Assembly: GCA_016930875.1 (NCBI GenBank) | Contig: JAFGFW010000085.1 | Span: 1 to 38,020, forward strand | DNA from: Deltaproteobacteria bacterium | GTDB taxonomy: Bacteria; Desulfobacterota; Desulfobacteria; Desulfobacterales; C00003060 | Length of the DNA stretch: 38,020 nucleotides | Direction: 5' to 3' | In this document: positions 2,577 to 38,020 of the stretch, in pieces | Position numbering within the stretch: the stretch's first letter is position 1 | Layout: the number at the start of each line of letters is the position of its first letter | Position numbers and translations under genes: made by a program | The notes under the pieces: model-generated | What the model saw: the letters and a program-made list of their open reading frames with translations, nothing else | Databases searched by the model: none | What the model was told of the DNA's origin: nothing

Positions 2577-4892
2577 ATGGTTGTGTTGAAAATGTCCAAA
2601 AAACAGGGCTCTGCCAACGGGACTGAGCATGGGTCCGGCCTGAAGCAGGAAGTAGAATACCGTGAAAGGCTTTTGGAAATCACCAACCGTGTCCATGCCG
2701 CAAGCAACATTGATGAAATCCTCATAGATCTGAAGGAAGATGTAACCGAACTGTTTGATGCCGAGCGACTCACCGTATATGTCGTGGACGGAATCAAAAA
2801 AGAACTGGTTTCCAGGGTAAAATCCGGAGACGAGATCAGCGATATCCGGATACCTATATCCACCACCAGTCTTGCGGGGTACGTGGCTCATAAAGGTGAG
2901 TTGGTAAACATCAAAAACGCGCACAATAGGAGCGAACTCTCGTCTATTGACCCAAACCTTTCCTTTGATGAAAGCTGGGACGAAAAGAGCGGATTTCAAA
3001 CCCGACAGGTCCTGGCCGCCCCCATCAGCTTTCAAAAATACCTCCTCGGAGCCATTCAGATCATCAACCACAAAGACGGTATGGCCTTTACCGAACGCGA
3101 CGAAGCAACGGTCCAGGAGTTAGCCAAAATACTTGGCATCGCCATCTACAATCAAAAAAGGATGGCAAAAGCGCGCCCGGGCAAGTTCGATTATCTCGTG
3201 GAAAATGGGCTGTTGGCTCAAAAAGAACTGGACAAGTCGATTTCAGATGCTCGCCAGACCAGGAAGGATGTTGAGTCCATTCTGTTACAGACCTATAAGA
3301 TCTCCAAGAAGGAGATCGGCAAAGCCCTGAGCCAGTACTACAGGACACCGTTTGTGGAGTACAGCGAGACACTGCCCATTCCTGGCGAGCTTCTAACAGG
3401 ACTCAAAGTCTCGTTTATGAAAAGAAACTACTGGGTGCCCATTGGAAAAGATGATGACAAGGTCATCGTCGCTATTGACAATCCTTTTCACCTGCAAAAA
3501 ATCGACATGATAAAGCCCCTGTTTGCAGGCCAGCCGCTGGCATTTCACGTGGCTCTTAGAGAAGACATCCTCAGTTTCATCAACCTTTTTTTTCAACAGG
3601 AAGGTGAACAAAGAGACATTGACGAGATACTCGGCCAGTTAGCGGTTGAGGAAGAAGAGATTGATGAAGCCGAAAAGGGAGTAACTGATGAGGATAGCGC
3701 CGTAGTCCAGTTGGTCAACAAGATCATCCTGGATGCATATGCTCGAAATGTCTCTGACATTCATGTAGAACCCTATCATGGAAAAAAGAATACCGAGATT
3801 CGATTCAGGACCGACGGTGTTTGCCAGCTTTACCAGACCGTGCCCTACAGCTACCGAAATGCCCTTGTTTCCCGCATCAAGATCATGTCGGATCTGGATA
3901 TTGCCGAACGCCGCAAGCCCCAGGACGGCAAGATAAAATTCAAGAAGTACGGGGGAAAAAACATCGAGCTTCGCGTGGCCACTGTGCCAACGGCAGGCGG
4001 CCTGGAAGACGTGGTGATGCGTATTCTCCATAGTGGCGACCCCCTGCCCCTAAACAAAATAGGGTTTTCCAAGAAGAACTACGAGGATTTCATAAGCTTA
4101 ATTGTTCAACCTTACGGTCTTGTCTTTGTGTGCGGCCCGACAGGCTCCGGCAAAACGACAACGCTTCATTCTGCCCTTGGATACATCAACAAGCCGGACA
4201 TCAAGATATGGACTGCAGAAGACCCCGTGGAGATCACCCAGGTGGGTCTGCGCCAGGTTCAGACCCACCACAAGATAGGTTTTGATTTTGCCGCAGCCAT
4301 GCGCGCATTCCTGAGGGCCGACCCGGATGTGATCATGGTAGGAGAGATGCGGGACAAAGAAACTACGCACATCGGTATTGAGGCGTCCCTTACCGGGCAC
4401 CTTGTCTTTTCCACCCTCCATACGAACAGCGCCCCCGAAAGCATCACGCGGCTGCTGGACATGGGAATGGATCCCTTTAATTTTGCTGATGCCATACTGG
4501 GGATCATGGCCCAGCGACTCGTTCGCACCCTTTGCAAAAAGTGCAAGAAGCCGTATAATCCTTCCCGAGAAGAATATGACGAACTGGTACGCGAGTATGG
4601 GCCTGAAGCATTTGAGGCACTGAACATACCCTATTCCAATGATCTGTCTCTCCACAAGCCCACAGGCTGCCCAGAGTGTAACAATTCAGGATATCGGGGC
4701 CGCATGGGTATTCATGAGCTCTTGATGGGAACTGACGAGATGAAAAAACTGATTCAGGAAAAAGCAACCATGGAAACGATCCGGGGTCAGGCCATCAAGG
4801 ACGGAATGACCACCCTGAAACAGGACGGCATTGAGAAGATCTTTGCCGGACACACGGATTTGTTGCAGGTGAGGAAGGTCTGTATTAAGTAG
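2577..4892 (+). CDS. GAF domain-fused type II secretion/type IV pilus assembly ATPase (GspE/PilB family)
   Basis: The protein has 771 residues. A GAF-like sensor domain covers about residues 20-190 and is followed by an MshEN/GspE N-terminal domain (about 205-340). The hexameric secretion ATPase follows, with Walker A GPTGSGKT at 520-527, an Asp box and Walker B 'RADPDVIMVGEMRD', and a zinc-binding tetracysteine site (C653/C656 and C698/C701). GspE/PilB proteins power pilus extension or type II secretion from the cytoplasmic side of the inner membrane. The GAF domain makes the protein about 200 residues longer than a usual PilB and suggests control by a small ligand. GGAGG lies about 11 bases before ATG 2577; a second ATG five codons in is the alternative start. 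No other pilus or secretion gene is adjacent; the prepilin peptidase is at 26091. Confidence 0.93.
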   Translation: MVVLKMSKKQGSANGTEHGSGLKQEVEYRERLLEITNRVHAASNIDEILIDLKEDVTELFDAERLTVYVVDGIKKELVSRVKSGDEISDIRIPISTTSLAGYVAHKGELVNIKNAHNRSELSSIDPNLSFDESWDEKSGFQTRQVLAAPISFQKYLLGAIQIINHKDGMAFTERDEATVQELAKILGIAIYNQKRMAKARPGKFDYLVENGLLAQKELDKSISDARQTRKDVESILLQTYKISKKEIGKALSQYYRTPFVEYSETLPIPGELLTGLKVSFMKRNYWVPIGKDDDKVIVAIDNPFHLQKIDMIKPLFAGQPLAFHVALREDILSFINLFFQQEGEQRDIDEILGQLAVEEEEIDEAEKGVTDEDSAVVQLVNKIILDAYARNVSDIHVEPYHGKKNTEIRFRTDGVCQLYQTVPYSYRNALVSRIKIMSDLDIAERRKPQDGKIKFKKYGGKNIELRVATVPTAGGLEDVVMRILHSGDPLPLNKIGFSKKNYEDFISLIVQPYGLVFVCGPTGSGKTTTLHSALGYINKPDIKIWTAEDPVEITQVGLRQVQTHHKIGFDFAAAMRAFLRADPDVIMVGEMRDKETTHIGIEASLTGHLVFSTLHTNSAPESITRLLDMGMDPFNFADAILGIMAQRLVRTLCKKCKKPYNPSREEYDELVREYGPEAFEALNIPYSNDLSLHKPTGCPECNNSGYRGRMGIHELLMGTDEMKKLIQEKATMETIRGQAIKDGMTTLKQDGIEKIFAGHTDLLQVRKVCIK

Positions 4893-29647: not shown

Positions 29648-31414
29648 TCACCATCGTCCCGGAAATGCGCCCAGAGGGAGGCGCAGGACAAAAGTTGTAC
29701 CTTTTTTCAACTCGCTGTGGCATTCAATGGTGCCGCGGTGAGCCTCCACGATCGTCTTGACCACTGACAACCCGAGGCCCGTACCTTTTTTGCCTTTGGT
29801 AGTAAAGAAGGGGTCGAACATCTGTTCCAAGATCTCTGGTGCCACGCCGAGCCCAGTATCTTCTATCATAACCACAAGGTTCTGCTCTTCAATCCTTCCT
29901 TCAATGCTTATCTTTCCGGGACCGCCTACGGCTTCTAAAGCGTTTTTGACCAGATTGTTCAAGGTCTGGTACATGAGACGGGTATCTATGTTGACAGGTG
30001 GCAGGTCGGAGGGCCAGTTGAGGTCAAGCTGGATTCCATTTTGTTTTGCATTGGCCTGATGGACAAACAGGACCTCACGAATAGTCTTGTCTATTGACAC
30101 CCTTTCCAGGTGTACGTCCGGTTTTTTGGCAAATTGTAAGAAATCATGAATGAAATGCCTGACCCGCTTTGAGTCTTTTTCCAATACATGCAGGGCATTT
30201 TCTCCTTTTTGGCTGAGGCCTTCACCCTTTAGAATGGCCAGAGTCAACCCTACGTTATTGAGAAGATTTCCCACCTCGTGGGTGACCTTGCTGGAGGTCG
30301 TGCCCAGGATGGCCAAATTCTTTGAATGTGCCAGTTCCCTGGCTGTCTCAACTTCACGCCTTATGAATGTCTTGAGCGAATCTGTCATCTCATTAAAAGC
30401 CAGGGCCAGATCGCCGATTTCGTCATGGGAGTCAACAGACGCCCTCTGATCAAGGTCTCCCTGACCGATTCTTTCAACCTGGCGGTGAAGGGTGTGAATA
30501 GGGGTAAGGAAATGCCTTACCCGATGCCACCCGAGGAGGATGGCCAAAAGGCAGATCAAACATGTTATGAGGATACCCCAGCGAATATTCTGGTATAAGT
30601 ATGCATAGATCTCCGGGTAGGCCTGGCTTAAGACAATCACCCAATCAAGATCCGGAATACGGTAGCCCAGGCAGTGGAGTTTGGTTTCGTCCTTTTCTTC
30701 AACCCAGACCACGGGCGTACTGGAAGTGCGGAGTTTTTTCAGGACGCCTGATGCTTCTTCCGGACGCCCCCTGACCACGCGGTCCATTTCCATGTGGCCG
30801 ATGAACTGTCCTGACAAATCCATGATAGCCACTTGGCCTGTGTCGCCTACTTTGACCCCCTCCAACACATCCCACACTGACTTCAGGTTAAATTCACCCC
30901 AGAGGACTTCCTTGACCTCGCCGAGGTGCAGTATTGGGGCGGCTACATGGATATAAGGGATATTTTCTTTTGTCCACATGACACCGGAAATGGCCCTTTT
31001 GCCTGTCAGTGCCTTTCTAAAGGTCCCGCTTTGGCTAAAGTTTACGTCTCCTTTTTCCCGGCCAACCGATATGACCTCCTTCCCTTGTGTGGAAATCAAA
31101 GACATAGACATGAATTCCGTTGCTGTATGACTAAAAGCTGCAATGGCCATCTCCTTTTGCCATCGATTCAGTTTAGTGGCAGCTATGACCCAGGCCAGGC
31201 CCTCTAAACCTTTTTGTGCATTTCTCATGAAAAGGCGGATCTCGCCTGCAGAGCTTTTGATGATATTTTCGTAATCCGTGTTTATGGTTTTCTGAAAGTG
31301 GGTATAAGTCGTCCAAGAAAGGATGATGCCGGTCATGGTGATGGATAGGACAAGAAAAGGCAGGACAAAGAGGAGAACCTTATAGATGAGTTTTGTCTTT
31401 TTGTAGGCGTTCAC
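29648..31414 (-). CDS. Membrane sensor histidine kinase with extracytoplasmic Cache-type sensor
   Basis: The protein has 588 residues: TM1 (about 12-32), a large periplasmic region of about 240 residues with Cache-like strand patterns ('GKEVISVGREKGDVNFSQSGTFRKAL', 'YIHVAAPIL', 'GDTGQVAIMDLSGQFIGH'), TM2 (about 275-295), HAMP, phospho-acceptor H379 in 'SKVTHEVGNLLNNVG', and a HATPase with 'NNLVKNALEAVGG' and 'GKKGTGLGLSVV'. No receiver-domain partner is in the window. The GTG start lies inside the left arm of a dispersed repeat (31409-31426), and no strong ribosome site is visible, so the 5' end may have been reshaped. It is the last gene of the peptide region. Confidence 0.88.
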   Translation of the reverse strand: MNAYKKTKLIYKVLLFVLPFLVLSITMTGIILSWTTYTHFQKTINTDYENIIKSSAGEIRLFMRNAQKGLEGLAWVIAATKLNRWQKEMAIAAFSHTATEFMSMSLISTQGKEVISVGREKGDVNFSQSGTFRKALTGKRAISGVMWTKENIPYIHVAAPILHLGEVKEVLWGEFNLKSVWDVLEGVKVGDTGQVAIMDLSGQFIGHMEMDRVVRGRPEEASGVLKKLRTSSTPVVWVEEKDETKLHCLGYRIPDLDWVIVLSQAYPEIYAYLYQNIRWGILITCLICLLAILLGWHRVRHFLTPIHTLHRQVERIGQGDLDQRASVDSHDEIGDLALAFNEMTDSLKTFIRREVETARELAHSKNLAILGTTSSKVTHEVGNLLNNVGLTLAILKGEGLSQKGENALHVLEKDSKRVRHFIHDFLQFAKKPDVHLERVSIDKTIREVLFVHQANAKQNGIQLDLNWPSDLPPVNIDTRLMYQTLNNLVKNALEAVGGPGKISIEGRIEEQNLVVMIEDTGLGVAPEILEQMFDPFFTTKGKKGTGLGLSVVKTIVEAHRGTIECHSELKKGTTFVLRLPLGAFPGRW

Positions 31415-31619
31415 AGGTTCAGGGTTACCTTATGTTTTGTTGGGTCAACGCTATATAAAGCTCACTTTGGACTTCTGTGCAAGACCATTTTGCATACCAA
31501 TTCAGCCGTCGCAGCCGCTTTGGCGAAGTCGGCAGAAAACAAACAAGCTCCCATCCCCCACGAATCAACGGTTTAGAGTATCGGTGAACTCTGAACCTCT
31601 GAACCCGTGAACGGTAACC
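31409..31619. repeat. Inverted-repeat element between the kinase and MFS genes
   Basis: The left arm GTTCACAGGTTCAGGGTT (31409-31426) and right arm CGGTGAACTCTGAACC...CCCGTGAACGGTAACC (31582-31619) form an inverted pair; TTCACAGGTTCAG matches the complement of CTGAACCCGTGAA with one mismatch. The same arms lie almost end to end at 1586-1642. The roughly 155 bases between the arms hold no gene. Most of the 230-base gap is therefore repeat. Confidence 0.6.
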
Positions 31620-31644
31620 GGGAAGCCTTGCGACGCTTTCTTGT

Positions 31645-32853
31645 CTAGCCTATGGACATCTTCTTGAAAGGCATAGCGCCTGTTGTCAGAAGGGATGCCC
31701 ACAGCAAGACCAAAGACGCAGCGAGCAGAAGGGGTTGGGGACCCCACAGGCTTAAGACAAGGGCGCTGATTAATGTGGCTCCCAAATAGCAGACCCCTCT
31801 GTATGCGGTTAAGATGGATATGGTTTTCCCCATGTGGGCCTTGGGGCTGGTTTGCTGGATAAGGCTTTCCAAAAAGATATGTGCCAGCGTTAGTCCGCAG
31901 CCAAATAGAATCATCAGCAAGGCAATCTGGATGTAAGTTGTGAGGTGACCGAGAATGGCCATGCCCCCTGCGAGGATCAAAAATGTAAGAGAAAGAATCG
32001 ATTTGGGCCTGAAAGTCGATGACCACCTGGGCAACAGGAAGGTCGCCAGACAGGAACCAGCCTGAAACCCCGAAAGGATCAACCCCCAATCAGCAATATT
32101 GCTGCCAAAGTTTGACTTGAACAAGATGGGTAGGCCAATATTCAATACACCTCCTCCCAGAAGCACAAACCCGAAGATAAGAAAATAGGCCCTGAGGTTA
32201 TGATTCTTTCTAAAAGGCTCCCTGTACTTAAAGAGCAAAGACTCCTCGCCCCCAGCTCCCTCTGCACTGCGGCCGGACCCATCATGGACATCAGCGAATT
32301 TCGGCAGCCCGCAGAGGGCGCAGGCCGAGAGCATAAGAAGGGCGCCGGCCAGCCCCAGAGCGACTCCCTGACCAGCTTTCAAAACCACCCAGCCGATAAG
32401 ACAGGGCCCGCAGATGCTGCCGGCGAGCGACACCCTTTCGTTCAGGGCATTAAAGGCGATGATTTGTTTCTTGGGTATCAACAGAGGGGTCACGGAAAGA
32501 CGTCCGATGTGGAAAAAAAGTGAACCCACCGTAAAAAGAAGGTAGGCAGGCAGGATGATCCAGGGAGATGATTGAAGGACAAGCAATCCCACCAGAGCGC
32601 ATTTTCCCACATTGACCATGGTGAGCCACTTTCTGACCCCCACCCGATCCATCCAAAGACCTGCCAGGGGGCTCATGAGGATAGAAGGGGTTTGCTGAAC
32701 CAGGCAAAGCACTACGAGATTCGACAAAGCATTCTCTCCCTTAAAGATCAGCACGTCAAGCAGGGTTAGGCCCACGAACTGGTTTGCCAGATCGGCCAGG
32801 AGATCGGCTGAGATGATGAGATACTTCGGGGCAATCCGGTCAGTGGGTCTCAC
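31645..32853 (-). CDS. MFS transporter, probable exporter of the modified peptide
   Basis: The 402-residue polytopic protein has an MFS pattern of about twelve helices, with the loop 2-3 signature 'GLWMDRVGVRKWLTMVNVGK'. It resembles EntS-like exporters of small secondary products. The GTG start overlaps the stop of the radical SAM gene (GTGA), a strong sign of coupled translation, so export of the maturase product is a reasonable inference. The real substrate is unknown. Confidence 0.82.
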   Translation of the reverse strand: MRPTDRIAPKYLIISADLLADLANQFVGLTLLDVLIFKGENALSNLVVLCLVQQTPSILMSPLAGLWMDRVGVRKWLTMVNVGKCALVGLLVLQSSPWIILPAYLLFTVGSLFFHIGRLSVTPLLIPKKQIIAFNALNERVSLAGSICGPCLIGWVVLKAGQGVALGLAGALLMLSACALCGLPKFADVHDGSGRSAEGAGGEESLLFKYREPFRKNHNLRAYFLIFGFVLLGGGVLNIGLPILFKSNFGSNIADWGLILSGFQAGSCLATFLLPRWSSTFRPKSILSLTFLILAGGMAILGHLTTYIQIALLMILFGCGLTLAHIFLESLIQQTSPKAHMGKTISILTAYRGVCYLGATLISALVLSLWGPQPLLLAASLVLLWASLLTTGAMPFKKMSIG

Positions 32854-34175
32854 GCTGCTATCTTCAAGGCCGCATTCTCTTGGCGTTCCTGAAAAGAGAC
32901 GGCTGAAGCCATTTCCCTGATGTATTCTTCCAGAAAAAGGCGCTGTATCTCTTCATGGCAATCGATGCCGTTGAAACCGTTCCCCTTTATCAGGGCCTGC
33001 AAGCGGCAGCCGCCCATGCATATGGGCAAGATGGGGCATTTGTTCAGGCATTTGTCGGGCAGCTTTCGTTTCAGAAGTTCTGATTCTGCCACAAAGTCGA
33101 TCCCTGTTGTGACATGTCCATAGGCCATTTCCCCGCCTTGCAGCGATGGGCAGGGGATGATGGAACCGTCTGCATCAAAGACAAATCTTGCCCGAAAATC
33201 GGCCATGCAGGCATTGGAAGGGACCTCATCATCCTGGGGGAAGCCTCGTTTTTGGGCCTCTTCTGTGAGATAGAGCAATATCCTGGGATCGCCTGTGCCG
33301 GATTGAAAGGGGCTTTTTCCCCTTCTGGGCAGGATCGGGTTAAAGGTGACGTCCTCAATTGCAATGCCACGTTCGACAAAATCGTCCAGCATCTCCGGAT
33401 AACCCAGGAAATCAAAGGCGCCACTGTCATACTGGCATTCAATGCTAATGGGAATCATCCCGGAGACAGCCTCAAGGTTTTGCAAAATCACTTCATAGGT
33501 CTTGCCATTGCTCTTTGAGGGCCTCAGAATATCGTGAACAGCAGCAGGCCCTGCCAGGCTGACCCGAAGACCTGTGAGTCCCACCTCCTTCATGTCTGCA
33601 ATGATAGACGGCCTGATGAGCGTGCCATTGGTGGTGATGACAAAGCCGTATTCAATCCCCCTTCCCAGGCAGTAATAAAATCGCCTGGCAGCGCTGTCCA
33701 GGATGATCTTGGAATTGAGTAGCGGCTCGCCACCGAGGTAGTCGTCCTCAACCTTTTGAGGGTTCTTTTCCTCAATGGTCTCAATGTAGAACCGGTCCAT
33801 GGCCCGCGCTGTCTCAGGGGACATCTCTTTGGCCTCAGGATCGAGGATACAGTATTGACACTGGTTGTTGCATTTGCGGGTCACCAGGACCTTTGATTTT
33901 AGTGTGCTGAAATCATGGACGTATTGCTGCATCCAGGTCTCGAACAACATGGTTTCGTCCGTGGTGTCCCTTACCAGGAATCCCTGGTCACAAAGGACGT
34001 CCATGGCAGCAGGATCAGCCGGCGCCACTGGATCGCTCAGGGCGTAGGACCACTGTCTTTCAGGGATAAGGACAAGGGCCCGGGTCATGGTGTGATAAAG
34101 GGCCAAGAACTCTTCGCCCCCTCTTTTTTCAACAGGCACCGCTATGGTGAATCTCGACTTGTTGAGCAAAGACAT
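32850..34175 (-). CDS. Radical SAM/SPASM peptide maturase
   Basis: The protein has 441 residues. The N-terminal 90 residues may form a winged-helix peptide-recognition element (RRE-like). The radical SAM core has C102/C106/C109 in 'TRKCNNQCQYC' and 'YLGGEPLL' near 147. The C-terminal SPASM domain has seven cysteines (C323, C342, C376, C380, C386, C390, C406; CLNKCPILPICMGGC), enough for two auxiliary 4Fe-4S clusters. Such enzymes install thioether, C-C or other crosslinks in ribosomal peptides. GGAG lies eight bases before the ATG. A 30-residue Cys-rich peptide gene lies 69 bases upstream on the same strand and is the likely substrate. The exact modification cannot be told. Confidence 0.9.
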   Translation of the reverse strand: MSLLNKSRFTIAVPVEKRGGEEFLALYHTMTRALVLIPERQWSYALSDPVAPADPAAMDVLCDQGFLVRDTTDETMLFETWMQQYVHDFSTLKSKVLVTRKCNNQCQYCILDPEAKEMSPETARAMDRFYIETIEEKNPQKVEDDYLGGEPLLNSKIILDSAARRFYYCLGRGIEYGFVITTNGTLIRPSIIADMKEVGLTGLRVSLAGPAAVHDILRPSKSNGKTYEVILQNLEAVSGMIPISIECQYDSGAFDFLGYPEMLDDFVERGIAIEDVTFNPILPRRGKSPFQSGTGDPRILLYLTEEAQKRGFPQDDEVPSNACMADFRARFVFDADGSIIPCPSLQGGEMAYGHVTTGIDFVAESELLKRKLPDKCLNKCPILPICMGGCRLQALIKGNGFNGIDCHEEIQRLFLEEYIREMASAVSFQERQENAALKIAA

Positions 34176-34201
34176 GTTGTCATCTCCTTACTAAGAAAGA
34201 G

Positions 34202-34226
34202 CCCCCAGGCACCCTGTGCCTGGGGG
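34202..34226 (-). terminator. Strong hairpin between peptide and maturase genes (attenuator or partial terminator)
   Basis: On the minus strand CCCCCAGGCAC, loop AGG, then GTGCCTGGGGG gives an eleven-pair GC-rich stem, followed by CTCTTTCTT, a weak T-rich tail. It would reduce read-through or protect the 3' end of a short peptide transcript, so that peptide exceeds enzyme. Arrangements like this are common after RiPP precursor genes. Confidence 0.65.
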
Positions 34227-34246
34227 AGTCCAATAGATGCTGGACT
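34227..34246 (-). terminator. Second hairpin overlapping the peptide stop codon
   Basis: AGTCCA and TGGACT pair across an eight-base loop on the minus strand, directly before the GC-rich hairpin; the stem overlaps the TAG stop (34245-34247). It is too weak to end transcription alone and may act with its neighbour. Confidence 0.4.
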
Positions 34247-34337
34247 AGTTCCGGGAAGTTGGGCACCATGACGCGCAGCAGCTCATTCCTGACTTTCCAG
34301 TCTTGTATGCCCCTTTCTTGACAATAATCAGTTTCAT
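34245..34337 (-). CDS. Cysteine-rich RiPP precursor peptide (30 aa)
   Basis: This short gene encodes a lysine-rich leader-like part (MKLIIVKKGAYKTGKSGM, residues 1-18) and a cysteine-rich tail (SCCASWCPTSRN, 19-30) with C20, C21 and C25. GGAAAGGGGG precedes the ATG at suitable spacing, and an in-frame stop lies 18-21 bases upstream, so no longer N-terminus is possible. The next gene on the strand is a radical SAM/SPASM maturase, followed by an exporter. The three cysteines, the Trp and the Ser/Thr are candidate crosslink sites. I cannot tie it to a named peptide family with certainty; it recalls the short Cys-rich targets of radical SAM enzymes reported in Geobacter-like bacteria. Confidence 0.75.
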   Translation of the reverse strand: MKLIIVKKGAYKTGKSGMSCCASWCPTSRN

Positions 34338-34681
34338 CTTCTCAACCCCCTTTCCTTATGAATTGAAATCCTCAGATGATCCAGCCATGGCCTGATCCGG
34401 GTGGAATCGCTATTGTCTTTATCAGGATCTGTGCCGGGATCTGAGATCAAGGAGGGAAATGATATATGTCTTTATGATCGCAGGGAAAAACTGTGCTGGC
34501 CAGAAGATCACATAGGCCTTTGACAGGGGTCTGAGTTGAAACTTTTGCGCATAAGTTTAAAGCCTATACGCAGAAGTGGGGACTTGGACTGTGCAAGCCG
34601 TCGCCGCGCAGTAATCACAGGCCAGGCCAGGATCGGACCGCAGGCACAACAACTCTACAAGGAGCTTTGAGACGAAGTTGA
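34338..34681. promoter_or_regulatory. Regulatory gap upstream of the peptide gene
   Basis: These 344 bases hold no supported gene. They contain the 20-bp palindrome at 34539-34558, two direct copies of TGTCTTTAT (34414-34422 and 34467-34475), and the inverted pair CCTGAT/ATCAGG near 34391-34426. I found no good sigma-70 promoter. A minimal GG-N10-GC at 34626-34639 (minus strand) is the only pattern compatible with sigma-54, and its flanks fit poorly. Confidence 0.4.
34539..34558. promoter_or_regulatory. 20-bp near-perfect palindrome, candidate operator
   Basis: On the minus strand AAACTTATGCGCAAAAGTTT; its complement differs only at the two symmetric A/T positions next to the central TGCGCA. 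It lies about 200 bases upstream of the peptide ATG, a distance typical of enhancer sites for sigma-54 activators, and such a regulator gene is 1.7 kb away. Site and regulator are linked by inference only. Confidence 0.5.
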
Positions 34682-34717
34682 CCAGAAAGAATAAGGGCCG
34701 AACGCTACTTGGGCCCT
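34682..34717 (-). terminator. Rho-independent terminator after the solute-binding protein gene
   Basis: On the minus strand AGGGCC and GGCCCT pair, with an inner AA/TT pair across C-C mismatches, and are followed by TATTCTTTCT. It lies about 30 bases beyond the stop of the binding protein gene, so the peptide transcript would begin separately downstream. Confidence 0.55.
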
Positions 34718-34748
34718 ACCCTGCATCAAGGGAGGCATGCCTGAGCCG

Positions 34749-36305
34749 CTAGATCCCTTCGTGGGTGAGGGAAAAGGGAAAGGGCACCCTAAACCGCTTG
34801 GACATAACGTCGATGGCTGTTTTGTGAAACAGAAACGTGCCGGGCTGAAGCAATGTAATCAGTGCGTCTATTTCATAGAAGAGTTGCTTTTGTCTCACTG
34901 GGTCTGTTTCATCAAGGGCCTGATGGACAAGCCGGGTTACATCGGGGTGCTCAAATGAACCGGCTTCAGACCTTTCGGAAAGATCAGGGGCCCATAGCGA
35001 TTTTAAGCGTTCCGGATTACGGTATGCCCCGTGAAACTCGGTTAGCACGGCCTGAAAAACATTGTTTCTGCCGTATTTTTTCTTGAGTTCCAAGAAAGGA
35101 AGGGATTGCAAGTGTGCCTTGATGCCCAGGTCGTTCAGGCAAAGTTGCAAGTACTGTGCAACCTTCTTTTCGATCTGGCTCTCTTTAAAGACAAGGAGGG
35201 TGAACTCAAAAGGCTTCCCGTCCTTCCTTAGATAGTGGCCTGCATTGCCATAAGACCAGCCCGCCTCTTTAAGGAGTCTCAATCCCTTTTTCGGTGCGTA
35301 CGCTGCGGCCTTGACAGCAGGGTTGTGAAAGAGCGAGTCCACGCCCATGGGACCAACAGCCGCTTTGCCAAAACCCCCCAGGATGTTTTTTATAATATAG
35401 GTCCTGTCAAAGACATGGGAAAGGGCACGTCGGGCTTTGGGGTCAGAAAAGAGAGGATCAGATGTATTGTAAAGAAGGATCGTGTACCAATGGAGCGGGT
35501 AGAGATCAAAGTAATATTTTTTTTTGTATTGCTGCATGATTTCAAAGTTTTTGGGGGAGATCTCTTGGGCAATATCGGTTTCTCCTGAAAGGAGTCTTGT
35601 CCATGACTTTTCCTTGTTATGCTGAAAATAGAAGACAACGCGGTCCAGAGAAGGACGCCCACCAAAATAGTCTTCATTGGCAACAAGCACGACCTCCTTG
35701 TTGCCTTTTCTGGCTTTGAATCTAAAAGGACCGGAGCCTATGGGATGATTGTAGTAATCGATCCTCCCGGTATCGGCCATGGGCACGATCTCCATATCCC
35801 ATATCTTTCGGAGGAATTCAGGGTCATCTTTCTTAAGACCTATACACAGGGCACTATCTGACTCAAGGGAAACACGGTCTATCAAAGCTGACAAATAGGG
35901 CCGAATGTTCTTAAGCCACACGTCAAGTGTATACGCTACATCCCTTGAAGCTACCGGCGCTTTGTTGTGGAACCGGGCGTCTTCCCTGAGATAGATGGTC
36001 CAGGTAAAGGTTTTGGGATCATAGGTCCATTTGCTGGCCAGGTCTGGTTCGAGTTCTCCTTTGCAGTTGGGGACAAAGAGATAGCCGTATAGCAAAGGAA
36101 AGATTATGTTTGAACCAGAGGATTCTACGCGGGTGGGATCCAGGGAGGTAAAGGGGGCGGCCACGTCATAGCGAAGGACCTTTTCGTTTTTCGGCTTTTG
36201 CTCAGCAGAAGGGCTATCAAGCCTTTCACAAGAGGGCAAAAACACGATGAGGAAAATCAATATAAAAACTGAAGGCAAAAACCTAGGCATGTGTGAAAAA
36301 GGCAT
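34749..36305 (-). CDS. Family 5 extracellular solute-binding lipoprotein (peptide/nickel/metallophore type)
   Basis: From ATG 36305 the protein has 518 residues. The signal sequence 'FLPSVFILIFLIVFLPSC' ends in a lipobox, so it should be a periplasmic lipid-anchored protein. The mature part is SBP_bac_5: 'VLRYDVAAPFTSLDPTRVES', 'LEPDLASKWTYDPKTFTWTIYLREDARFHN' and 'DPKARRALSHVFDR'. The family binds oligopeptides, nickel and chelates for ABC importers. No permease or ATPase genes are nearby, so it is an orphan. MbnE of methanobactin operons belongs to this family. Starts at GTG 36353 or ATG 36290 are possible; none has a good ribosome site, and the 5' end overlaps the upstream regulator gene. 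Confidence 0.87.
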   Translation of the reverse strand: MPFSHMPRFLPSVFILIFLIVFLPSCERLDSPSAEQKPKNEKVLRYDVAAPFTSLDPTRVESSGSNIIFPLLYGYLFVPNCKGELEPDLASKWTYDPKTFTWTIYLREDARFHNKAPVASRDVAYTLDVWLKNIRPYLSALIDRVSLESDSALCIGLKKDDPEFLRKIWDMEIVPMADTGRIDYYNHPIGSGPFRFKARKGNKEVVLVANEDYFGGRPSLDRVVFYFQHNKEKSWTRLLSGETDIAQEISPKNFEIMQQYKKKYYFDLYPLHWYTILLYNTSDPLFSDPKARRALSHVFDRTYIIKNILGGFGKAAVGPMGVDSLFHNPAVKAAAYAPKKGLRLLKEAGWSYGNAGHYLRKDGKPFEFTLLVFKESQIEKKVAQYLQLCLNDLGIKAHLQSLPFLELKKKYGRNNVFQAVLTEFHGAYRNPERLKSLWAPDLSERSEAGSFEHPDVTRLVHQALDETDPVRQKQLFYEIDALITLLQPGTFLFHKTAIDVMSKRFRVPFPFSLTHEGI

Positions 36306-37432
36306 CAGAGAGTCTGTATCGGGACTGATTTGCTTTTTTTTTGTTATGGACACAGATATGGTTCTTTTTCAATATAGAAAGATATTTCCCTGCTGTTCCG
36401 TACTTGTTTCTATCGGATTTAGCTTTGTAACTCAGGAACCTTGTGAACTCCGGCCGGGAAAATGGTCTTTTGTTCGCCCTTAAGAGAAATTCATGGATTC
36501 TTTCTATGGTGGCACACTTCAGGGTGCGGTGCCACAGTCGAGGTGGCCCGCCATAGTTAGATATGGTGGCTCTCTTTAGTGCCTCTAAGAGATCGTCTTT
36601 CTTAACGCCACAGTACGAATAACCTTGTCTCCCTGGCCCTGACCCATTTGATAACTCTTCGGGAAGGTCATGAATGGCAATCTCTGTTGCTTTAGTTAGG
36701 ACAACCGCTCTTTCTATGATGTTTTCCAGTTCCCTGATATTTCCCGGGAATGAATAGTTCATCAGAGCCTCAAGGGCCTCGTTTGATATTCTTGGAACAG
36801 GTTTTCCGTTTTCACGGGTATATTTTGCCACAAAATGATCAACCAGAGGCGGTATATCCTCTCTATGGTCTCTTAAGGGAGGGAGCTGTGTCTTGATAAC
36901 ATTCAGACGATAAAACAGATCCTCCCTGAACCAACCTTCCTGAACGCCTTCTTTCAAGTCCCTATTGGCAGCCGCAATGAAGCGCACGTCCACCTTGATG
37001 GTCCTGATCCCTCCAACCCTTTCAAATGCATTCTCCTGTAGTACCCTCAATAATTTGACCTGAAGAGCTGTAGGCATTTCAGAGACCTCATCTAAAAAAA
37101 AAGCTTCCCTTATCAGCTACCTCGAATCGGCCTTTTTTCATGGCCATAGCCCCGGTAAATGCCCCTTTCTCATGTCCAAACATCTCGCTTTCCCACAGGT
37201 TATGGGACATGGCCGAGCAGTTGACCGCAACAAAAGGCTTGTTTTTCCGGTTGCTGTGATAATGAATGGCCCTTGCGATCAACTCTTTTCCTGTTCCGGT
37301 TTCCCCGACAATCAGTAACGTCGCCTTGGTAGGGGCAACCATTTCGATCAGTTCATAGATTTTTAACATGGGTTCGCTTCTGCCCACAATATTATGAAAG
37401 TGGGGTAGCTTGATAACTTCTTGCGATAACAT
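36283..37432 (-). pseudogene. Sigma-54-dependent AAA+ activator, interrupted by a +1 base in a 9-T tract
   Basis: The first part (37088-37432, 114 aa) has AGGAGG before its ATG, 'IVGRSEPMLK', Walker A GETGTGKE (43-50) and GAFTGA (90-95), and stops after GSFFFR. The second part (36283 to about 37090) continues in another frame with DEVSEMPTALQVKLLRVLQE, the RFIAAANRDL and FREDLFYRLNV motifs and the 'FPGNIRELENIIERAVVL' segment. Removing one of nine T (37094-37102; A on the plus strand) restores GSFFLDEVSEMP and a protein of about 382 residues. No receiver or sensor domain precedes the AAA+ domain, and no Fis helix-turn-helix ends it; the last 90 residues may be a winged helix. It could be a real mutation, a sequencing error, or a slippage site. 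Confidence 0.8.
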
Positions 37433-37522
37433 ATGTACCTCCTTGATCGGTCGTACCGGATCAGTCAGACAAAGGGTTTACAAAAAAGACCATAGGGAAA
37501 CCAGGATTAATGAGGAGTCATC

Positions 37523-38020
37523 CTAATACTCAAGCCTCACCCCGGCCTCGATCCAGCGATCCGGCTGGGGATAGACTTCGCGGTAGATATAGGAGGTATT
37601 GGTGAGATTATGTCCTGCACCAAAGAGGCTTAGCTTTCCGTATCGGTCCGACTCTGGAAGTCGGATCTTGATAAGATAGTCAAAGACAAAGACCTCATCG
37701 CGGGTTTCGGGGTAGCTGGAATTGTGATAGACATATTTTCCCACAAGAGAATGTGTCATCCACTCCCCTGTGTACGAGGCCGAGACATTGTAGAGGCGCC
37801 TCGGGATATCCTGGATCACCTCATCGGTCTCTTCGTCTTTTACGTCGATGAAGCTCCCGCCGAATGCCAGTGTCAGCCCGAAGTCAAATGTTGCCCGGAT
37901 GTTTCCTTCCACACCCTGCCGGGTAACCTTGTCGATGTTTTCAGGCTTGGTCTTCCAATCTTTAGGCTCAGGGATGAGATCTTTGATTTCTGACCGAAAG
38001 AGGTTCAGTTCGAGCCTCAG
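37523..38020 (-). CDS. TonB-dependent outer membrane receptor, C-terminal part (continues past the window)
   Basis: The frame is open to the window end at 38020 and so is partial at its 5' side. The visible 165 residues are the last beta-strands of a TonB receptor barrel: 'LRLELNLFRSEIKDLIPE' and a following 'RQGVEGNIRATFDFG', 'LFGAGHNLTNTSYIYREVYPQPDRW' and the C-terminal EAGVRLEY with the terminal aromatic. Such receptors import siderophores, cobalamin or other chelates with energy from TonB. The gene ends 90 bases before the sigma-54 activator on the same strand. The ligand cannot be told from this part. Confidence 0.85.
   Translation of the reverse strand: MRLELNLFRSEIKDLIPEPKDWKTKPENIDKVTRQGVEGNIRATFDFGLTLAFGGSFIDVKDEETDEVIQDIPRRLYNVSASYTGEWMTHSLVGKYVYHNSSYPETRDEVFVFDYLIKIRLPESDRYGKLSLFGAGHNLTNTSYIYREVYPQPDRWIEAGVRLEY

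Follow-up and report, generated by a model that had tools for sequence, protein, structure and literature searches.

A conserved Cys-Cys peptide and its SPASM maturase beside a TonB receptor in Desulfobacterota: a putative sister family of the geopeptides

Introduction

What does a 30-residue peptide encoded directly upstream of a radical SAM/SPASM enzyme do for the sediment bacterium that makes it, and which of the surrounding genes belong with it? The gene for this peptide is small and had previously been overlooked. It lies in a stretch of 38,020 nucleotides (contig JAFGFW010000085.1 of assembly GCA_016930875.1, from a deltaproteobacterium of the Desulfobacterales), which is referred to here as the window. 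The original prediction described a RiPP cassette of precursor, maturase and coupled exporter. SPASM-matured RiPPs as a kind are already known. Here we compare the locus with its relatives and ask how far this description holds.

The features of the window that enter the argument are as follows.

29648-31414, (-) strand: dCache/HAMP sensor histidine kinase
31645-32853, (-) strand: MFS transporter, candidate exporter, 402 amino acids, found in 12 of 19 related loci
32850-34175, (-) strand: radical SAM/SPASM maturase, 441 amino acids, with an RRE-like N-terminus and seven auxiliary cysteines
34202-34226, (-) strand: hairpin between precursor and maturase, 11 bp stem, probable attenuator
34245-34337, (-) strand: precursor peptide gene, 93 bases, 30 amino acids, MKLIIVKKGAYKTGKSGMSCCASWCPTSRN, conserved in relatives
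34338-34357, (-) strand: ribosome binding region of the precursor gene, AAGGAAAGGGGGTTGAGAAG, conserved in position in relatives
34421-34437, (-) strand: weak sigma-54-like (-24/-12) site, CCGGCACAGATCCTGAT, to which better sites of relatives align
34749-36353, (-) strand: SBP_bac_5 solute-binding lipoprotein (AppA/NikA type), last ~10 codons lost
36283-37077, (-) strand: sigma-54 AAA+ activator, C-terminal piece
37088-37432, (-) strand: sigma-54 AAA+ activator, N-terminal piece, with a +1 shift at a T9 run
37523-38020, (-) strand: BtuB-like TonB-dependent receptor, C-terminal part, cut by the contig end

Results

The peptide gene is conserved with its maturase

On re-checking, the coordinates predicted for the 30-residue precursor proved exact, and the ribosome site claimed for it was found as AAGGAAAGGGGG ahead of the ATG, together with the in-frame stop just upstream. 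The original prediction had staked the RiPP reading on the frame recurring beside homologues of the maturase. A search upstream of these homologues found the short frame conserved there, which strongly supports that reading. Among the same-genus orthologues of the maturase (67-77% identity, five genomes) all five have a frame of 29-30 residues at the same place upstream, preceded by the same ribosome site. The five peptides, MKLIVISKGTYRVRKSGLLCCGNHGPTSRN, MKLIVINKGTYSARKSGMSCCKAGPASRN, MKLIVINKGTYRVKKSGLMCCGNAPSSRN, VKLIVVKKGTYKVTRSSQKCCKNAPTGRT and VKLIVVKKGTYKVTKSSQHCCKNAPTGRT, show 52-62% identity (n=5). More distant relatives of the maturase in the same order are preceded by 13 further frames.

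An alignment of 18 peptides of the window clade, the nineteenth frame (L108) being damaged downstream, gives the consensus xKxIVIxKGxYxVxKxGxxCCxxxPxSRN. Gly9, Cys20, Cys21 and Arg29 are invariant, Pro26 is nearly so and the conservation extends to the last residues at the C-terminus. Where a Cys-rich tail had been emphasised, only the CC pair is conserved; alignment of the leaders and cysteines bears out this pair along with Gly9, Pro26 and Arg29 but not the third cysteine. Cys25 and Trp24, which are present in the window peptide only, were rejected as functional residues. Over the first 21 codons the third position has changed twice as often as the first or second, and dN/dS is 0.1-0.6 in most pairs of peptides, with values of about 0.8 and 1.1 in two pairs of low divergence. 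The frame is mostly under purifying selection.

A short frame with the CC motif (hydrophobic-G...CC) was found upstream of 38 of 41 maturases, compared with 22 of 360 other large genes from the same loci; the pattern was derived from these same peptides and it is the contrast, rather than the absolute number, that counts as evidence. No clear CC peptide was seen upstream of the maturases of L120 and L122 in the geopeptide clade or of L127 and L128 in a sister group. At the level of sequence these comparisons establish the 30-residue frame as a real conserved gene that is tied to its SPASM maturase. In a separate locus, L041, the precursor is present as two near-identical tandem CC copies, MKKRIQVLKPGVDKDKFD[YD]DCCRTNQPRQ, about 520 and 150 nt upstream of the maturase.

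The maturase belongs beside the geopeptide family

The seven auxiliary cysteines predicted for the enzyme are Cys323, Cys342, Cys376, Cys380, Cys386, Cys390 and Cys406, and the radical SAM motif CxxxCxxC is formed by Cys102, Cys106 and Cys109. The motif and the seven further cysteines align across 13 relatives, the frame-damaged row of L035 being without the last two. With these cysteines and a TIGR04085 score of 41.6 bits (cut-off 27) the protein is a SPASM radical SAM enzyme. An AlphaFold2 model (mean pLDDT 76) places a winged-helix-like N-terminal part ahead of the barrel. Among PDB entries that match the model along almost its entire length, the CteB structures 5why and 5wgg come out best. 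CteB is a thioether-forming enzyme with a leader-binding domain (RRE). The locus therefore has a conserved short precursor adjoining a maturase with a predicted RRE, as expected of a RiPP. While the window enzyme shares with the SCIFF maturase CteB and with PapB the combination of leader-binding, radical SAM and SPASM domains, its precursor has a single CC pair and its clade mostly lacks acidic acceptors; its scores also fall below the cut-offs for both families (TIGR03974, the SCIFF maturase, 48.5 bits against 425; NF047865, PapB, 81.4 bits against 340).

The best curated match is TIGR04280, the NCBIfam model for the "geopeptide" maturase, at 220 bits, with the next family at 105; the cut-off of TIGR04280 is however 400. 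Its bona fide members L038, L042 and L043, which were distant matches of the window maturase, score 489-562 bits, and loci of true members likewise have a small CC peptide upstream. The model for the geopeptide precursor, TIGR04229 (22 residues, cut-off 30 bits), gave no match to the window peptide or two of its relatives; of the peptides of the other clade, L109 scored 29.6 bits and two others 15-16. A tree of 49 maturases sets the window clade (19 rows, support 100/100) apart from the geopeptide clade (27 rows, 99/97). Given the separate clade, the lack of a TIGR04229 match and the missed TIGR04280 cut-off, the window system is, as judged from the sequences, a sister family of the named geopeptide RiPP rather than a member of it. 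Whereas the original prediction had matched the peptide to no named family, the system can be placed as the sister of one, although it falls below both curated cut-offs. A third related group of maturases (L127, L128) has SBP5 and histidine kinase genes directly downstream.

In the window system as in the geopeptide system a small CC peptide, in which a hydrophobic stretch and a Gly precede the CC, is encoded directly upstream of the SPASM maturase, with a BtuB-like TonB receptor, a periplasmic binding protein and a histidine kinase nearby. The window peptide differs in having a Lys-rich KGxY segment and an end of the form ...P..RN, where geopeptides have an acidic LDxG; the binding protein is of the SBP_bac_5 type, often with a coupled MFS gene, as opposed to PF04392.

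Of 389 genomes sampled in the order, 18 carry the window-type enzyme, which hardly occurs elsewhere in the phylum. Matches of the TIGR04280 type at E <= 1e-60 occurred in 40 of 395 sampled genomes of the phylum (about 10%), 30 of them above the cut-off. A search of genome contigs for the maturase returned a single named locus, L047, a Desulfobacterales MAG that is the same contig as L033, and a scan of viral contigs gave nothing useful. In the open-licence PMC literature we found no papers on geopeptides or TIGR04280, and no description of the sister family or of its receptor and kinase context.

A receptor, a binding protein and a kinase accompany the pair

The MFS gene begins, as had been predicted, with a GTG that overlaps the stop of the maturase gene, by 4 bases. 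A cassette of precursor, maturase and exporter is nevertheless too small: a TonB receptor, an SBP5 lipoprotein, a histidine kinase and often sigma-54 regulators belong to it. The gene order in the genus is sigma-54 response regulator, BtuB-like TonB receptor, sigma-54 AAA+ activator and family-5 solute-binding lipoprotein, followed by peptide, maturase, MFS and Cache histidine kinase; the activator was not seen in L036, and the MFS gene is absent from L036 and L037. In the window the conserved unit covers 29648-38020 at least, and the contig stops before the unit does.

Around 42 peptide genes, within a 9-kb reach and at fixed score thresholds, a TonB receptor was found at 38, a periplasmic binding protein at 36 and a histidine kinase at 37, the last being the softest of the three counts because kinases are common genes. 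Three of the four loci without a receptor end within a few kilobases and the fourth is L108. The binding protein belongs to SBP_bac_5 at loci of the window clade, whereas the geopeptide clade has PF04392 instead. In the window clade the kinase is the most constant partner (19/19). The MFS gene, by contrast, was rejected as a constant part, and with 12 of 19 loci it is among the least constant. No further gene family is common to more than four loci, hence there is no conserved ABC permease or peptidase. The SPASM protein is the candidate modification enzyme at these loci, and in the comparison of gene families shared among them no other enzyme family recurs.

The closest profile of the binding protein is that of AppA (oligopeptide), followed by NikA (nickel/metallophore), and its nearest solved relative is the oligopeptide binder AppA. 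The receptor is nearest to BtuB. Rfam scans returned no hit for the window and did not detect a cobalamin riboswitch in any of seven relatives; vitamin B12 is hence not supported, despite the BtuB-like receptor.

Several of the neighbouring genes have features of their own. At 34715-34760 of the window, (-) strand, the SBP5 gene ends in ...THEGI, about ten codons early, with a stop codon where orthologues have Tyr and continue YRLRYASL. In three genomes a +1 shift breaks the sigma-54 AAA+ activator gene in two, each time at the same run of 8-9 T (window 37077-37088, (-) strand; L033, about 3980-3995; L034, about 1610-1625), while L035 has it intact, at 378 amino acids; the split is possibly programmed slippage or shared decay. 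A subgroup (L107 7710-9653, L106 2327-4273 and L104) has a protein of 647 amino acids, with no Pfam family, between SBP5 and the peptide; upstream in L107 are also an aldehyde ferredoxin oxidoreductase, a GMC oxidoreductase and a GntR regulator. L105 (11943-13370) and L108 (12535-14004) encode homologous proteins of about 480 amino acids, that of L105 with an NB-ARC (STAND) domain and adjoining the TonB receptor gene.

Control signals

Two hairpins had been described after the precursor gene. One is strong (34202-34226); a second strong one was rejected, being at most a 4-bp candidate. Hairpins with equivalent arms but different sequences are found between peptide and maturase at nearly all loci of the window clade and at many geopeptide loci. 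Such a hairpin fits an attenuator that would give more precursor than enzyme.

The sigma-54-like site of the window is weak, yet it is aligned with GGCAC..ATC.TGATAA in three relatives. Taking the best site in the 300 nt upstream of each peptide gene, 20 of 42 loci reach at least 8 bits, whereas 6.7% of windows drawn at random from these loci do so; at 10 bits or more the figures are 14 of 42 and 2.4%. The related loci are not independent and the matrix is an approximate consensus. The good sites lie mostly 74-117 nt from the start codon of the peptide.

Discussion

Related bacteria retain peptide and maturase next to an outer-membrane uptake receptor, a binding protein and a sensor kinase, so the cell probably releases the peptide, recovers it and senses it, in the manner of metal-scavenging peptides. 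We infer the modification of the peptide by the adjacent iron-sulfur enzyme, its cargo and its function. The reading we prefer, to which we would give about an even chance, is that of a thioether-type peptide which is exported, retrieved and sensed, and which would most likely serve as a scavenger of a scarce ligand such as a metal. By analogy, and from the model of the enzyme, the IVxxKG-type N-terminal part of the peptide may dock on the RRE-like domain of the maturase. SAM radical chemistry would then cross-link one or both cysteines of the invariant CC pair to residues before them, most likely as thioethers, and the MFS protein or another pump would export the product. The BtuB-like receptor would return the peptide, free or loaded, to the periplasm, where the AppA/NikA-type lipoprotein would bind it. 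Transcription of the peptide gene would be adjusted by the Cache histidine kinase and its sigma-54 regulator.

Thioether chemistry is supported by the maturase model being closest to thioether-forming CteB. The reading of the product as a metallophore comes from the types of receptor and binding protein and is circumstantial. A methanobactin locus likewise combines a small Cys peptide, an exporter, a TonB receptor and a binding protein related to OppA/AppA (PMC3621798, PMC7558416). It is this shared layout that favours a retrieved scavenger, although the likeness to MbnA, MbnT, MbnE and MbnM is in layout only and no sequence relation was shown. Methanobactin loci have MbnB/MbnC, a MATE exporter and MbnI/MbnR where the window system has the radical SAM/SPASM enzyme, the MFS protein and a histidine kinase with sigma-54 regulation; MbnB, of the DUF692/MNIO type, and MbnC are the modification enzymes of methanobactin. 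Metal scavenging also finds support in a distant geopeptide locus, L039 (845-4579), which lies beside genes for DUF4198, CbiM, CbiQ and an ABC ATPase, as in cobalt/nickel-type uptake, though this is one locus only. Against the preferred reading, most members of the clade have no Asp or Glu in the segment before the CC, residues which are the acceptors in PapB-type ranthipeptides. The absence of a conserved ABC permease near the binding protein is as compatible with sensing as with import. Several loci lack the exporter, no conserved peptidase is nearby and the sigma-54 site of the window is weak.

A pheromone is a serious rival, if on the whole an unlikely one, given that no partner in the window clade is as constant as the kinase and that there is no conserved permease. 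The released peptide would re-enter through the TonB receptor, be bound by the lipoprotein and switch the kinase and the sigma-54 regulator with no metal involved. Sigma-54 sites ahead of the peptide gene would suggest feedback control, the peptide is conserved to its last residues and an oligopeptide binder is the closest solved structure to the binding protein. TonB receptors, however, typically import scarce nutrients or their carriers, an energised outer-membrane receptor being unusual for a signal, and the kinase, which carries a Cache domain of its own, may respond to some other input.

It is improbable that the neighbours form separate systems, in which the receptor set would import an unrelated nutrient and the peptide would regulate or accompany it, or be the source of a peptide-derived redox cofactor such as PQQ or mycofactocin. 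The binding proteins do differ between the clades, as would be expected for differing nutrients, and the PQQ and mycofactocin pathways likewise combine a small precursor with a SPASM enzyme. Nevertheless, the receptor keeps its place beside the peptide in both maturase clades and in many families, and no peptidase or dehydrogenase recurs beside the peptide. Still less probable is a sactipeptide-like bacteriocin with the MFS protein as exporter and immunity: a Cys-containing SPASM RiPP with a coupled MFS gene would look like this, but the MFS gene is absent from 7 of 19 loci, the peptide is strongly conserved rather than diversified, and neither a dedicated uptake receptor nor a binding protein or kinase would be expected of such a product. 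The reading of the frame as a chance ORF, with another substrate for the maturase, short frames being common and CC-motif frames preceding some control genes too, is already contradicted by its presence in every same-genus orthologue, the purifying selection, the shared ribosome site and the invariant residues.

For the geopeptides there is a model name, and in the open-licence PMC literature neither paper nor function was found; the context of receptor, binding protein, kinase and sigma-54 regulation gives peptides of this type a concrete and testable role. We would tentatively propose, at somewhat short of even confidence, that SPASM-made Cys-Cys peptides are widespread in the Desulfobacterota, where they may be released and recovered through dedicated TonB receptors as a new ribosomal metallophore or retrievable signal, under the control of a periplasmic binding protein, a histidine kinase and sigma-54. 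If this is true, radical SAM chemistry would extend the small number of ribosomal pathways by which metal-scavenging or retrievable peptides are made.
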